In this document: piece by piece, positions 35,020 through 38,732 of the stretch
Numbering within the stretch: position 1 is the first letter of the stretch
Layout: every line of letters begins with the position of its first letter
Origin: Desulfobacteraceae bacterium
GTDB taxonomy: Bacteria > Desulfobacterota > Desulfobacteria > Desulfobacterales > ETH-SRB1
Assembly: GCA_028571455.1 (NCBI GenBank)
Contig: JAPVVG010000113.1
Location: forward strand, 1 to 38,921
Direction of reading: 5' to 3'
Length of the DNA: 38,921 bases
Position numbers and translations under genes: made by a program
The notes under the pieces: model-generated
The model's input: the letters and a program-made list of their open reading frames with translations, nothing else
The model's database searches: none
What the model was told of the DNA's origin: nothing

Positions 35020-35158
35020 TCCTCAATAAGTTCTGGTAAATGCTTTGGCAAACGAATTGTCTGGATTCCCGCCTACGCGGGAATGACGGGCGCTTATACT
35101 AAATTGTCATTCCCGCGGAGGCGGGAATCCAAGAGTCGATGCCAGAACTTATTGAGAA
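35020..35158. repeat. MITE-like element of a third TIR family, about 137 bp
   Basis: The ends ctcaataagttctgg (35022-35036) and ccagaacttattgag (35142-35156) are perfect 15-bp inverted repeats. Inside is a second pair of hairpin arms (ggattcccgcctacgcggga and tcattcccgcggaggcggga). No ORF is inside. The rest of the polA-vapB gap (34914-35019, 35159-35340) shows nothing I can name. Confidence 0.75.
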
Positions 35159-35351
35159 GTTACCAACATATTTCATAAGCAAAGAAAAATCCAACATATT
35201 TTAACCTGAATCGAGCGATTTTTGGCTCGATCTGCACTGCTCTCTTGCGCATCAAGGATTAGCGAAGCTCAAAATATTTCTTAATGGCCAAGGCCTGACA
35301 CATATGAGCCGTTCTCTTGGGTTGATCGTTTTATAATGGAAAATTTTAGAA

Positions 35352-35387: not shown

Positions 35388-35585
35388 ATGAGAACAACAT
35401 TAAATATAAATGATGAAATTTTGGGGAAAGCGTCTCGTTTGACAGGAGTGAAGGAAAAGACCGCTCTGGTTCGACTCGGGTTGGAAGCTTTGATTGCCCG
35501 TGAAAGTAGCAAGCGGCTTGCAAAACTGGGTGGTACAGAAAAGGGGCTTCGAGCTATTCCAAGACGGAGATCAGCTAAAATTTAA
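35388..35585 (+). CDS. vapB: VapB-type antitoxin
   Basis: The 65-residue product starts MRTTLNINDEILGKASRLTG and continues VKEKTALVRLGLEALIARES, the ribbon-helix-helix pattern of the VapB antitoxins paired with PIN toxins (DUF2191 type). The basic C-terminal tail (RRRSAKI) is the toxin-binding part. vapC begins 2 nt after its stop. Regulation is probably by binding of VapBC to the palindrome at the promoter. Confidence 0.9.
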   Translation: MRTTLNINDEILGKASRLTGVKEKTALVRLGLEALIARESSKRLAKLGGTEKGLRAIPRRRSAKI

Positions 35586-35587
35586 TC

Positions 35588-35947
35588 ATGATTCTCGTTG
35601 ACACTTCAATCTGGGTTACCCATTTGAGAGAGGGAAGCCGTCACCTTGAAAAACTGCTTCTGGATGCAGAGGTGATGTGTCACTCTTTCATAATTTGCGA
35701 ATTGGCCTGTGGTAATATTAAAAACCGATATGAAATTTTGACCTTACTTCGCTCCCTACCGATGGTCCCAACCATCGATCTTAATGAATTTCTTTTTTAT
35801 ATTGAACAAAAGAAATTGATGGGTATTGGTATCGGTTTCGTTGATGTGCACCTTCTCGCTTCAGCACAATTGTTGGGAATACCACTCTGGACTTCAGATA
35901 AGAGATTAAAATCAGCGGCAAACAAACTTAATATTGCCTACAAGTGA
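35588..35947 (+). CDS. vapC: VapC-type PIN domain ribonuclease toxin
   Basis: The 119-residue product has the four acidic PIN residues: D5 (ILVDTSIWV), E38 (IICELACG), D86 (GFVDVHLLAS) and D104 (WTSDKRL). The length is close to that of other VapC proteins, so the toxin looks active. It probably cleaves tRNA or rRNA when freed from VapB. Confidence 0.92.
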   Translation: MILVDTSIWVTHLREGSRHLEKLLLDAEVMCHSFIICELACGNIKNRYEILTLLRSLPMVPTIDLNEFLFYIEQKKLMGIGIGFVDVHLLASAQLLGIPLWTSDKRLKSAANKLNIAYK

Positions 35948-35981: not shown

Positions 35982-36114
35982 ACAAGCTCGTAAAAAGTCA
36001 TTTTGTACGTCACTCCAGCGAAAGCGGGAGTCTATAACCGATTGAATTTACTGAATTCCCGCTTTCGCGGGAATGACAATAATCAGGCATTTTCGACTTT
36101 TTACGAATTCATCA
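35982..36114. repeat. MITE-like TIR element, copy E
   Basis: The left end caagctcgtaaaaagtc (35983-35999) and the right end gactttttacgaattcatc (36095-36113) belong to the family seen at 11889-12029. The interior differs: it holds hairpin arms around gaaagcggga and cccgctttcg. The ends are therefore shared among copies and the middle is not. Confidence 0.75.
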
Positions 36115-36155: not shown

Positions 36156-36671
36156 ATGCTTACGTCACCAAACGAGTTGAAGACACGGCACAGGTTTGCC
36201 GACTACATTTATTGGACACTCTTTTTCGCGATACATTTCATCACAGCGCTCGCGGCCATCTCAAAGCACTCTATTGCGTGGCTGGTCTGCTATGTTGCCG
36301 TTGGAATTTGTCTCGTGCTTCTCATATTGAAATTCTATTGTAGTCACTGCCCACATTACATTCAAGGGAAGAAAAGCATCAAGTGTATGTTTTTTTGGGG
36401 CATTCCAAAAATGTTCAAGCCAAGACCCGGGCCATTGCGGCCATTTGAAAAGGCCATGTCAATTATTTCGCCTGTCATATGGGTATTGTTTCCTCTTTAT
36501 TGGCTTGCTTTGGAGCCGAGCTTTTTGGCGATCTATTTGTTGTCTTTGCTGGTATTAGTGTTAACCATCAGAAGAAATGAATGCGGCCGATGTATCTATT
36601 TCCACTGTCCGATGAACTGTGTGCCAAAAAACATAAGTACGAAACCATCAATTTTGCTGAAGGGATTTTGA
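36156..36671 (+). CDS. Integral membrane protein with two cysteine clusters
   Basis: The 171-residue product has about four hydrophobic helices (residues ~18-36, 41-61, 103-121, 122-138). After helix 2 comes FYCSHCPHY (CxxCxxY), and after helix 4 comes ECGRCIYFHCPMNCVP, with CxxC and CxxxC spacing. Paired cysteine clusters next to membrane helices suggest metal or Fe-S binding or a thiol redox role at the membrane, but I do not recognise the family. An AAGGGTGAG site stands about 11 nt before the ATG. It is 71 nt upstream of the HD-domain gene. Confidence 0.7.
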   Translation: MLTSPNELKTRHRFADYIYWTLFFAIHFITALAAISKHSIAWLVCYVAVGICLVLLILKFYCSHCPHYIQGKKSIKCMFFWGIPKMFKPRPGPLRPFEKAMSIISPVIWVLFPLYWLALEPSFLAIYLLSLLVLVLTIRRNECGRCIYFHCPMNCVPKNISTKPSILLKGF

Positions 36672-36742: not shown

Positions 36743-37531
36743 TTGAAAAAAAGTGAACTTATACATTTAAAGAACTGGTTTGCCGATTATGTGTCCGGTT
36801 ATTACACCGCTGATTCAGAATATAACCGCGCTATCAGCTTAAAAGAGGAACATACAAAACGGGTGTGCGACAATATTGTCATGTTAGGCAAATCGCTGGA
36901 CATTTCAGAGCAGGAGATGCTGCTGGCGGAAACAATGGCTTTACTGCATGACATCGGAAGGTTTAAACAATATGCCGTATATGGCACATTCAAAGATATG
37001 GATTCTAAAAACCATGCCACACTGGGATTGCAACAGATAGGGATGCATAAAATTTTGAATGTATTTTCAAAATACGAAAAAAGACTTGTCGCAAAAGCTG
37101 TTGCATATCATAATGTCGCTGTTCTTCCAAAGGCAGAAGATGAAAAAACCCTGTTTTTTATACGGCTTCTTCGAGATGCTGACAAACTTGATATATGGAA
37201 GGTTTTTATTGATTACTACAATGAACGGGAAAAGAATCCAAATCCAACCATCGAACTTGGCCTTCCCGATGAACCTGTATGTTCGCCGCAGGTTTTACAG
37301 ACTTTGAAAGAATGCAAAACAGTAAGAATAAATGATTTGAAAACATTAAACGATTTTAAACTGCTCCTGATAGGCTGGGCATTTGATCTGAATTTTGTCC
37401 CCTCATTCCAGGCCCTTCAAAACCGGAAGTATATAGAGCAGCTTGCGTCAATTCTGCCGCAATCAAAAGAGGTAAAAGAGGCAGTAAAGCAGGCGCATGA
37501 TCATGTGATAAGATGCTCAGGGGAATTTTAA
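36743..37531 (+). CDS. HD domain phosphohydrolase
   Basis: The 262-residue product has the metal-dependent HD pattern: an upstream His in KEEHTKRVCDNI, ALLHDIGRFKQYAVYG (HD at about 68-69), KNHATLG, AVAYHNV, and LLRDADKLDIWKV for the last Asp. It would hydrolyse a nucleotide or similar phosphate compound; the substrate is unknown. The start is TTG at 36743, the only early start in frame, without a Shine-Dalgarno. The adjacent aatcctg repeat may have replaced the original upstream region. It probably forms an operon with the small gene at 37546 and galE. Confidence 0.85.
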   Translation: MKKSELIHLKNWFADYVSGYYTADSEYNRAISLKEEHTKRVCDNIVMLGKSLDISEQEMLLAETMALLHDIGRFKQYAVYGTFKDMDSKNHATLGLQQIGMHKILNVFSKYEKRLVAKAVAYHNVAVLPKAEDEKTLFFIRLLRDADKLDIWKVFIDYYNEREKNPNPTIELGLPDEPVCSPQVLQTLKECKTVRINDLKTLNDFKLLLIGWAFDLNFVPSFQALQNRKYIEQLASILPQSKEVKEAVKQAHDHVIRCSGEF

Positions 37532-37545
37532 TAAGGAGAAAAATA

Positions 37546-37707
37546 ATGAAAGAAACAATTATTTTGCTGGTAATAGCAGGAGCCTGGTTCCTTTTACAGA
37601 TGTATATCCTGCCTAAATTGGGAATTTCCACATGAATGAAAGATGCCTGTCAGTTGACAGACCGCAAGGAAGATACACACGGCAAAAAATCAAAGGGTAA
37701 AAAATAA
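37546..37707 (+). CDS. Small membrane protein with in-frame TGA: candidate selenoprotein, 53 aa
   Basis: A strong AAGGAG site lies 7 nt before ATG 37546. The frame reads MKETIILLVIAGAWFLLQMY and then ILPKLGIST, one membrane helix. TGA follows at 37633-37635, and then MKDACQLTDRKEDTHGKKSK, ending GKK at TAA 37705-37707. If TGA is read as selenocysteine (U30), the motif is U-x4-C35 just after the helix on the probable cytoplasmic side, suggesting thiol/selenol redox or metal handling. A hairpin fitting bacterial SECIS rules starts in the right window (see 37644-37666). Read-through leaves 14 nt to galE and 14 nt to the HD gene; stopping at TGA would leave an 86-nt gap. The alternatives are a genuine 29-residue peptide or a nonsense-mutated gene. 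I have not verified homologues. Confidence 0.5.
37644..37666 (+). promoter_or_regulatory. SECIS-like hairpin downstream of the in-frame TGA
   Basis: CTGTC (37647-37651) pairs with GACAG (37656-37660) around the loop AGTT, which has G at its second position. TGC (37644-37646) can also pair with GCA (37664-37666) across a 3-nt bulge. The loop begins 16 nt after the TGA (37635). Spacing, loop size and loop G agree with known bacterial SECIS elements recognised by SelB. It is short, so chance is possible. Confidence 0.45.
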
Positions 37708-37721
37708 GGATAAAAAATGCT

Positions 37722-38732
37722 ATGGCGCTACTGGTTACAGGAGGAGCCGGCTATATCGGCTCTATTTGTGTTGAAGAGTTTTTGCTTCAGGGGCACAAGG
37801 TGGTAGTAATAGATAATTTGCAGGAAGGACACCGTGAAGCGGTTCTTCCTGAAGCTATCTTCTATGAAGGGAATTTTGGCGATCAATCTTTATTGAAGAC
37901 GATTTTTCAGAAGTACTCTATTGATGCAGTAATCCATTTCGCGGCTGATACCAGGGTAGAATCTTCCATGACTAACCCGGGTCAGTTTTTCAATAATAAC
38001 GTGGTAAACGGGATTATACTTCTTGATGCCATGCGAGAGGCTAACTGCAAGCGTATGATCTTTTCCTCCAGCGCCGCCACTTTTGGCGAGCCTCAGTATA
38101 TCTCTGTGGACGAGAAACATCCTCAGGTGCCGATTAACCCTTACGGAGAATCCAAGCTGATGTTTGAAAAGATTTTAGATTGGTACCATATCGCCTATGG
38201 CCTCAAATTCAATGCCCTGCGATACTTCAATGCTGCCGGGGCAAGTAAAAGGTTTGGTGATGCAAAACGTCACGTAACCCTTCTCATTCCGGTAACCATC
38301 CAGGTTCTGCTTGGGCAGCGTGAAAAGCTGCAAATATTCGGCAACGATTACCCGACAAAAGACGGCACCTGCGTGAGGGACTATATACATGTGCTGGATC
38401 TGGTTCAGGCTCACATCCAGGCGCTTGAAAATCTTGATAAACATCCCAACGGCAAATATAACCTGGGAAATGGACAGGGGTTTTCGAACCTTGAAGTAGT
38501 CAAAACAGTAGAATCCGTGAGCGGCAGAAAAGTTCCTTTCGAATTTGCCCCGCGCAGATCTGGAGATCCGGCAGTTCTTATAGCCTCTTCAGATCTGGCC
38601 CGTCAGGAACTACATTGGAACCCAAAGCATGCAAAACTAAAAGATATCGTCGCCTCAGCCTGGGAATGGCACAGAAACCATCCCAATGGATATAAATTTT
38701 GTGACTATTCAGCCACAGATTCACACAGATGA
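37722..38732 (+). CDS. galE: UDP-glucose 4-epimerase
   Basis: GalE interconverts UDP-glucose and UDP-galactose, supplying cell-surface sugars. The 336-residue protein has the NAD-binding loop GGAGYIG (7-13), D31 at the end of the second strand, FAADTRVESS, the catalytic SSSAATFG (S116-S118), Y141-x3-K145 (NPYGESK), ALRYFNAAGA, and CVRDYIHVLDLVQAH. An AAGGAT site lies about 11 nt before the ATG. The last residues (about CDYSATDSHR) are encoded by a dispersed repeat (38713-38740) and are probably not original. The epimerase family is certain; a paralogue with another sugar cannot be excluded. Confidence 0.94.
   Translation: MALLVTGGAGYIGSICVEEFLLQGHKVVVIDNLQEGHREAVLPEAIFYEGNFGDQSLLKTIFQKYSIDAVIHFAADTRVESSMTNPGQFFNNNVVNGIILLDAMREANCKRMIFSSSAATFGEPQYISVDEKHPQVPINPYGESKLMFEKILDWYHIAYGLKFNALRYFNAAGASKRFGDAKRHVTLLIPVTIQVLLGQREKLQIFGNDYPTKDGTCVRDYIHVLDLVQAHIQALENLDKHPNGKYNLGNGQGFSNLEVVKTVESVSGRKVPFEFAPRRSGDPAVLIASSDLARQELHWNPKHAKLKDIVASAWEWHRNHPNGYKFCDYSATDSHR

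Follow-up and report, generated by a model that had tools for sequence, protein, structure and literature searches.

Small single-pass membrane selenoproteins with selenocysteine (Sec) on a cytosolic basic tail are represented in eukaryotes by SELENOK and SELENOS, to which the protein described here is likened only in the way it may work. Unlike in the present family, Sec in these two proteins is located near the C-terminus, the tails are longer and Gly/Pro-rich or VCP-binding, and the SECIS element is a eukaryotic one in the 3′UTR; no sequence relation is claimed. Another likeness is to the SigR-RsrA thiol-stress system, inasmuch as some of the loci described below have genes for an ECF sigma factor and a zf-HC2 anti-sigma factor beside the selenoprotein gene. 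This link is genomic only, and we know of no selenoprotein that is part of that system. The catalogued prokaryotic selenoprotein families share with the present one a UGA codon with a downstream bacterial SECIS (bSECIS) element, the SelABCD machinery and a Cys near Sec, but they are mostly thioredoxin (Trx)-like and soluble and have Cys homologues. A Sec that is unreplaced by Cys in the known homologues is shared by GrdA (selenoprotein A) and the ExtKL multihaem cytochrome candidate; however, the former is a soluble glycine-reductase subunit and the latter is a secreted multihaem cytochrome, whereas the protein here is a membrane protein of 53 residues. The deep-Sep families also differ from the present one. 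Families without Cys homologues are said to be scarce (PMC1914089).

The family identified in this study is probably a new one, as far as the open-access literature is concerned, consisting of membrane-bound and apparently Sec-only proteins of 45 to 70 residues. For 44 or 52 diverse members, no match above the curated cut-off was found in Pfam and NCBIfam 20.0 (June 2026), where only sub-threshold chance matches were obtained. The 2026 catalogue of prokaryotic selenoproteins, which lists 119 families/subfamilies, has no entry with such a motif, size or topology (PMC13188914, Table 1), and the families of the 2007 survey of the Olavius symbionts appear in that table. Searches for selenoproteins rely on homologues with Cys (PMC13188914), and a length limit of 80 residues has been applied even in a relaxed setting (PMC1242214). 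The family, with fewer than 70 residues and never with Cys as far as searched, would therefore be missed by methods based on Cys homologues or length, which suggests that there may be more tiny selenoproteins behind UGA codons. An annotation profile is now available for this gene, for which the searched family libraries have no entry.

Locus, topology and selenocysteine machinery

The DNA analyzed (the window) is the stretch of 38,921 nucleotides at positions 1 to 38,921 of contig JAPVVG010000113.1 in the assembly of a Desulfobacteraceae bacterium (GCA_028571455.1). The original prediction, made from the letters of the window, placed a small membrane selenoprotein gene between an HD-domain gene and galE. 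The features on which it relied, namely a strong Shine-Dalgarno site, a frame of 29 sense codons, a TGA and 23 further codons up to TAA, a U-x4-C motif and a spacing of 14 nt to the neighbor on each side, were all located exactly as predicted (Table 1). A Shine-Dalgarno-like site was also present upstream of the gene in 148 of 162 family members.

Table 1. Features of the selenoprotein locus, with window positions and the basis of each assignment
Feature	Position	Strand	Basis or remark
Selenoprotein gene	37546-37707	+	53 aa plus TAA (37705-37707), M..WFLLQMYILPKLGIST-U-MKDACQLT..KK with U for TGA (in full, MKETIILLVIAGAWFLLQMYILPKLGISTUMKDACQLTDRKEDTHGKKSKGKK); homologues
Shine-Dalgarno site AAGGAG	37533-37538	+	7 nt before ATG 37546
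Single transmembrane helix, about residues 2-22 (predicted)	37549-37611	+	AlphaFold2; family mean hydropathy 2.41
Membrane-exit motif PKLGIST (family P-[KR]-x-G-x-x-[TSG])	37612-37632	+	Conservation in 52 sequences
UGA read as Sec, residue 30 (inferred)	37633-37635	+	TGA here in every inspected member
Cys35 (TGT), putative partner of Sec30 in U-x4-C	37648-37650	+	Cys after Sec in 155/161
Short Lys-rich tail, predicted cytoplasmic and disordered	37651-37704	+	Positive-inside count; pLDDT
Putative bSECIS hairpin CUGUC-AGUU-GACAG	37647-37660	+	Loop starts 16 nt after UGA
HD-domain protein, upstream	36743-37531	+	PF01966; adjoins the selenoprotein gene in 11 other family loci
galE, downstream (context only)	37722-38732	+	TIGR01179, 398.7 bits

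The peptide had been expected to span the membrane once, and AlphaFold2 indeed predicted a single helix of residues 2-29 with high confidence (pLDDT 94 in residues 1-20), followed by a tail that was disordered in residues 41-53 (pLDDT <50). A Trx fold was absent from this model of one helix and a disordered tail, and the PDB contained no relative. Of 161 sequences, 149 had more positive charges C-terminal to the helix than N-terminal to it (mean, 3.35 vs 1.61); by the positive-inside rule, Sec and the tail rich in Lys would be cytoplasmic. The predicted form is, hence, one helix with the N-terminus outside and the C-terminus inside, with Sec about 7 residues past the membrane on its cytoplasmic side, and the tail is most likely to face the cytoplasm.

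The prediction would have been refuted by the absence of selABCD genes from the source genome, and such absence was not the case. Both selA (610 bits) and selB (E 2.4e-111) were found, and selD was split into two fragments, each at a contig end, with a Sec of its own in the N-terminal fragment (AGSGUASK). No complete tRNA-Sec gene (selC) was found in the source assembly, where the hits of the covariance model were ordinary tRNAs, whereas selC was complete in three relatives in the genus (G009, G013 and G014). When the selC locus of a relative (L222) was aligned, 67 nt were matched where contig C159 ends, and these extend into the tRNA gene as far as its nucleotide 27. The host thus has selC, although truncated by the assembly, and all four genes can be assigned to it. 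The co-occurrence of SelB across genomes was uninformative, with nearly all of those sampled matching SelB or an EF-Tu-like protein.

Distribution of the family and constancy of Sec

A search with the read-through protein gave 14 places in 12 of the 17 genomes of the taxonomic family of the source, every one of which has an in-register TGA followed by conserved sequence. Thus, the sequence after the TGA, for which the absence of homologues had been named as another ground for refutation, is kept in relatives. When the genome contigs of GTDB were scanned, 76 loci were found, nearly all of them labeled as Desulfobacterales or Deltaproteobacteria, and TGA was at the same residue in all 76. It was also in frame at the Sec site in all of the 40 distant loci. 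By a 14-row profile, matches were found in 228 of 291 genomes and 118 of 138 sampled genera of Desulfobacterales, which would place the family among the most widespread selenoproteins that one could find in its phylum. By a 52-row profile, they were found in 172 of 395 genomes and 115 of 245 genera in a sample across the phylum. In well over 150 genomes, TGA was in frame at the same residue with both flanks conserved. Viral contigs contained no relative of the window protein, and plasmids gave no match to it. Three matches on Enterococcus plasmids to a distant member with Cys were antisense in an acetyltransferase gene and were dismissed as chance (E 0.1). Separately, one family member (L072) is on a contig labeled as Candidatus Eisenbacteria, for which transfer, misbinning and mislabeling are all possible.

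No Cys or other sense codon was seen at the Sec site among the members read, which were from the 291 genomes of the order and the 395 of the phylum, the profile searches having covered Desulfobacterota only. The search profiles have Cys at the Sec column, and a Cys form would therefore outscore the TGA form; none appeared. Among the matches listed, all down to about E 1e-12 contain TGA at this site, and the weaker ones, when read singly, either had TGA there or were non-members. Weak matches (E above 1e-3) that lack the motif, such as L202 with its frame of 297 aa, are likewise non-members. The absence of a Cys form accordingly means that none was seen among the matches listed and is not proof that none exists. 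Nevertheless, an unannotated protein that is found in much of a phylum, always with TGA at one site and without any Cys substitute seen, is best understood as a real selenoprotein family, and it is these homologues, rather than the single sequence, that settle the question of chance. Sec seems irreplaceable here, so that the question of why Sec is used rather than Cys could be tested in cultured strains.

Among 52 diverse sequences, P23, G26 and residue 30 were invariant, and W14, L22, T29 and C35 were conserved in at least 90%. A Cys was found downstream of this Sec in 155 of 161 distinct sequences, with a spacing of x4 in 139, x5 in 11 and longer in a few, the range across the family being x4 to x20. 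Four of the six sequences without it belong to a clade with two TGA codons, and the other two (L096 and L191, from one lineage) are without any Cys. In this lineage, which also includes L184, Sec is kept while the partner Cys is absent (GVKTULVPMNRQEA). The two-TGA clade (L190, L192, L194 and L195, near 1501-1700, family f146) reads GLPSU...RPIPTUDGPSC, and its second TGA carries a U-x4-C motif (PTUDGPSC). As judged from these letters, it could possibly encode a microprotein with two Sec residues.

The hairpin behind the UGA codon

A hairpin starting exactly 16 nt after the TGA had been predicted, with a 4-nt loop carrying G at the second position. The loop (AGUU, 37652-37655) was as described, but the distance of 16 nt applies to this loop; the stem of 5 bp (37647-37651 with 37656-37660) starts 11 nt after the TGA. 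In the published bSECIS model, a loop of 3-9 nt with G in its first two positions is on a stem of 4-16 bp at 16-37 nt after UGA, with a free energy of -7.5 kcal/mol or lower (PMC13188914). The window hairpin meets this model in loop size, stem length, G position and distance (4 nt and 5 bp, at 16 nt). Its energy was -6.2 kcal/mol in 30 nt and -7.3 kcal/mol in 39-45 nt, the latter just missing the cut-off, and many relatives were below -7.5 kcal/mol. As a lone sequence, the window was unremarkable, with a z of +0.89 for the fold of 101 nt and with its hairpin equaled by 4.7% of synonymous shuffles. Nothing was found in Rfam at this locus, and, to our knowledge, there is no bacterial SECIS model there.

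The selection on this hairpin was seen in the family. In a shuffle test, in which the protein was fixed and synonymous codons were redrawn from those of the family, the 36 nt that follow the TGA in 142 genes folded more than the shuffles did (mean z, -1.69; t, -20), whereas the mean z of the 36 nt before the TGA, as the upstream control, was only -0.34 in the same number of genes. In an alignment of 47 Desulfobacterales sequences, 29 cells had compensatory changes on both sides of the stem, a number reached by none of 500 shuffles, compared with 3-9 double-sided cells in control alignments that were slid. The base pair 15-28 was held as C-G, U-A and G-C, and the pair 18-25 as U-A or C-G. The loop was AGGU in 68 and AGUU in 14 of 119 sequences, and hairpin sequences differ in distant lineages. 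Within what such comparisons can reveal, they demonstrate that the SECIS hairpin just behind UGA30 has been selected beyond coding need.

The structured RNA downstream of UGA would also suit an alternative in which UGA is a true stop. The product would then be a one-helix microprotein of 29 residues, as expected if no Sec is inserted, with either a regulatory RNA or merely accidental sequence behind it. However, the conservation behind the TGA is at the protein level, involving the Cys, a Q and a V/L-T, in every complete member the frame there stays open for 15 codons or more, and neither TAA nor TAG was in place of TGA in any member read. The true-stop reading is accordingly very improbable. 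An error of sequencing or assembly in a TGY codon for Cys, the usual alternative, could be suspected if the window, from a lone metagenome-assembled genome, were on its own, and a correction of the TGA in a single strain had been foreseen as a refutation. This can be practically dismissed, because TGA is present in independent genomes, including complete chromosomes such as that of Desulfonema magnum (NZ_CP061800; L025). The homologues thus led us to reject the stop-codon, error and misbinning readings. As far as homologous sequences can demonstrate it, the protein is conserved across UGA30 and its decoding is under selection. The selenoprotein interpretation is supported, and it is almost certain that the window gene is translated as such, although no protein-level or 75Se data are available.

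Possible function and gene neighbors

We consider it quite likely that the best explanation overall is a family of single-pass membrane selenoproteins acting as a redox switch or relay, the function being inferred. Sec30 as a selenol and Cys35 as a thiol, the latter predicted to sit on the flexible Lys-rich tail behind Sec, would cycle to a selenenylsulfide and back. By this cycle, the membrane-anchored protein may hand on oxidizing equivalents received from a membrane oxidoreductase, peroxide or a disulfide; its partner, either soluble or in the membrane, could in part of Desulfobacterales be the pair of an ECF sigma factor and a zinc anti-sigma factor in the same operon. The two sequences without any Cys (L096/L184 and L191) weaken this reading. 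The alternative that Sec, with Cys, serves as a ligand of a metal or metalloid, or as a structural or assembly element of a membrane complex such as Fe-S, Mo and cytochrome enzymes, is in keeping with the fact that many Sec residues bind metals (PMC13188914) and with the variable Sec-Cys spacing, which demands little geometry. A HybA/HmcB-type Tat Fe-S protein, a membrane protein of 150-160 aa or a cytochrome c7 was a neighbor in 19 of 149 loci together, including those of very distant lineages, and MobB in 15. Most loci, however, are without such genes, and the alignment has no further conserved ligand (His, Cys or Asp) near Sec, so that we regard this alternative as rather unlikely. Our preference for a redox switch or relay over a metal ligand or complex assembly, inferred from the residue pattern, is one of moderate confidence.

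A co-directional gene was within 150 nt in 109 of 149 loci, and its identity varies. It was an ECF sigma factor gene in 20 loci, with a zf-HC2 anti-sigma factor gene about 565 nt on from it in 17, weakly matching RsrA (TIGR03988, 30 bits, under the cut-off). The HD protein, as in the window, was a neighbor in 12 loci and a 3D-domain protein (3D lipoprotein) in 8, and further neighbors were GltX and EngB. With no single conserved operon partner, an assignment of function from neighbors is weak. That the protein stays constant while its context changes speaks for a general redox role at the membrane and less for a component of any one enzyme. The final 32-47 nt of the selenoprotein gene are shared with the ECF sigma frame, which is read in another frame and whose start codons are unconfirmed, and the arrangement of this overlap followed by zf-HC2 anti-sigma was found in 16 Desulfobacterales loci. 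The loci with the sigma overlap are L028, L031, L032, L046, L067, L078, L082, L083, L094, L103, L108, L110, L111, L115, L116, L119 and others. Translational coupling through the UGA is possible there. It is further conceivable, though doubtful, that the obligate-Sec microprotein doubles as a sensor of selenium and redox state, in which ribosomes would have to pass UGA, with selenium present, to couple into translation of the sigma factor, and the Sec/Cys tail would signal the redox state to the zinc anti-sigma factor.

Elsewhere in the window, 36156-36671 encodes a membrane protein of 171 aa with the Cys-rich motifs CSHCPHY and CGRCIYFHCPMNC, for which no Pfam or NCBIfam match was found. A pair of a VapB antitoxin (PF09957) and a VapC-like toxin with a PIN domain is encoded at 35388-35947. 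Short frames on both strands at about 35040-35180 and 36003-36090 read DSRLRGNDG, PAYAGMTG and FPRRRESK. Judged by eye, this is characteristic of dispersed palindromic repeats of a known type.
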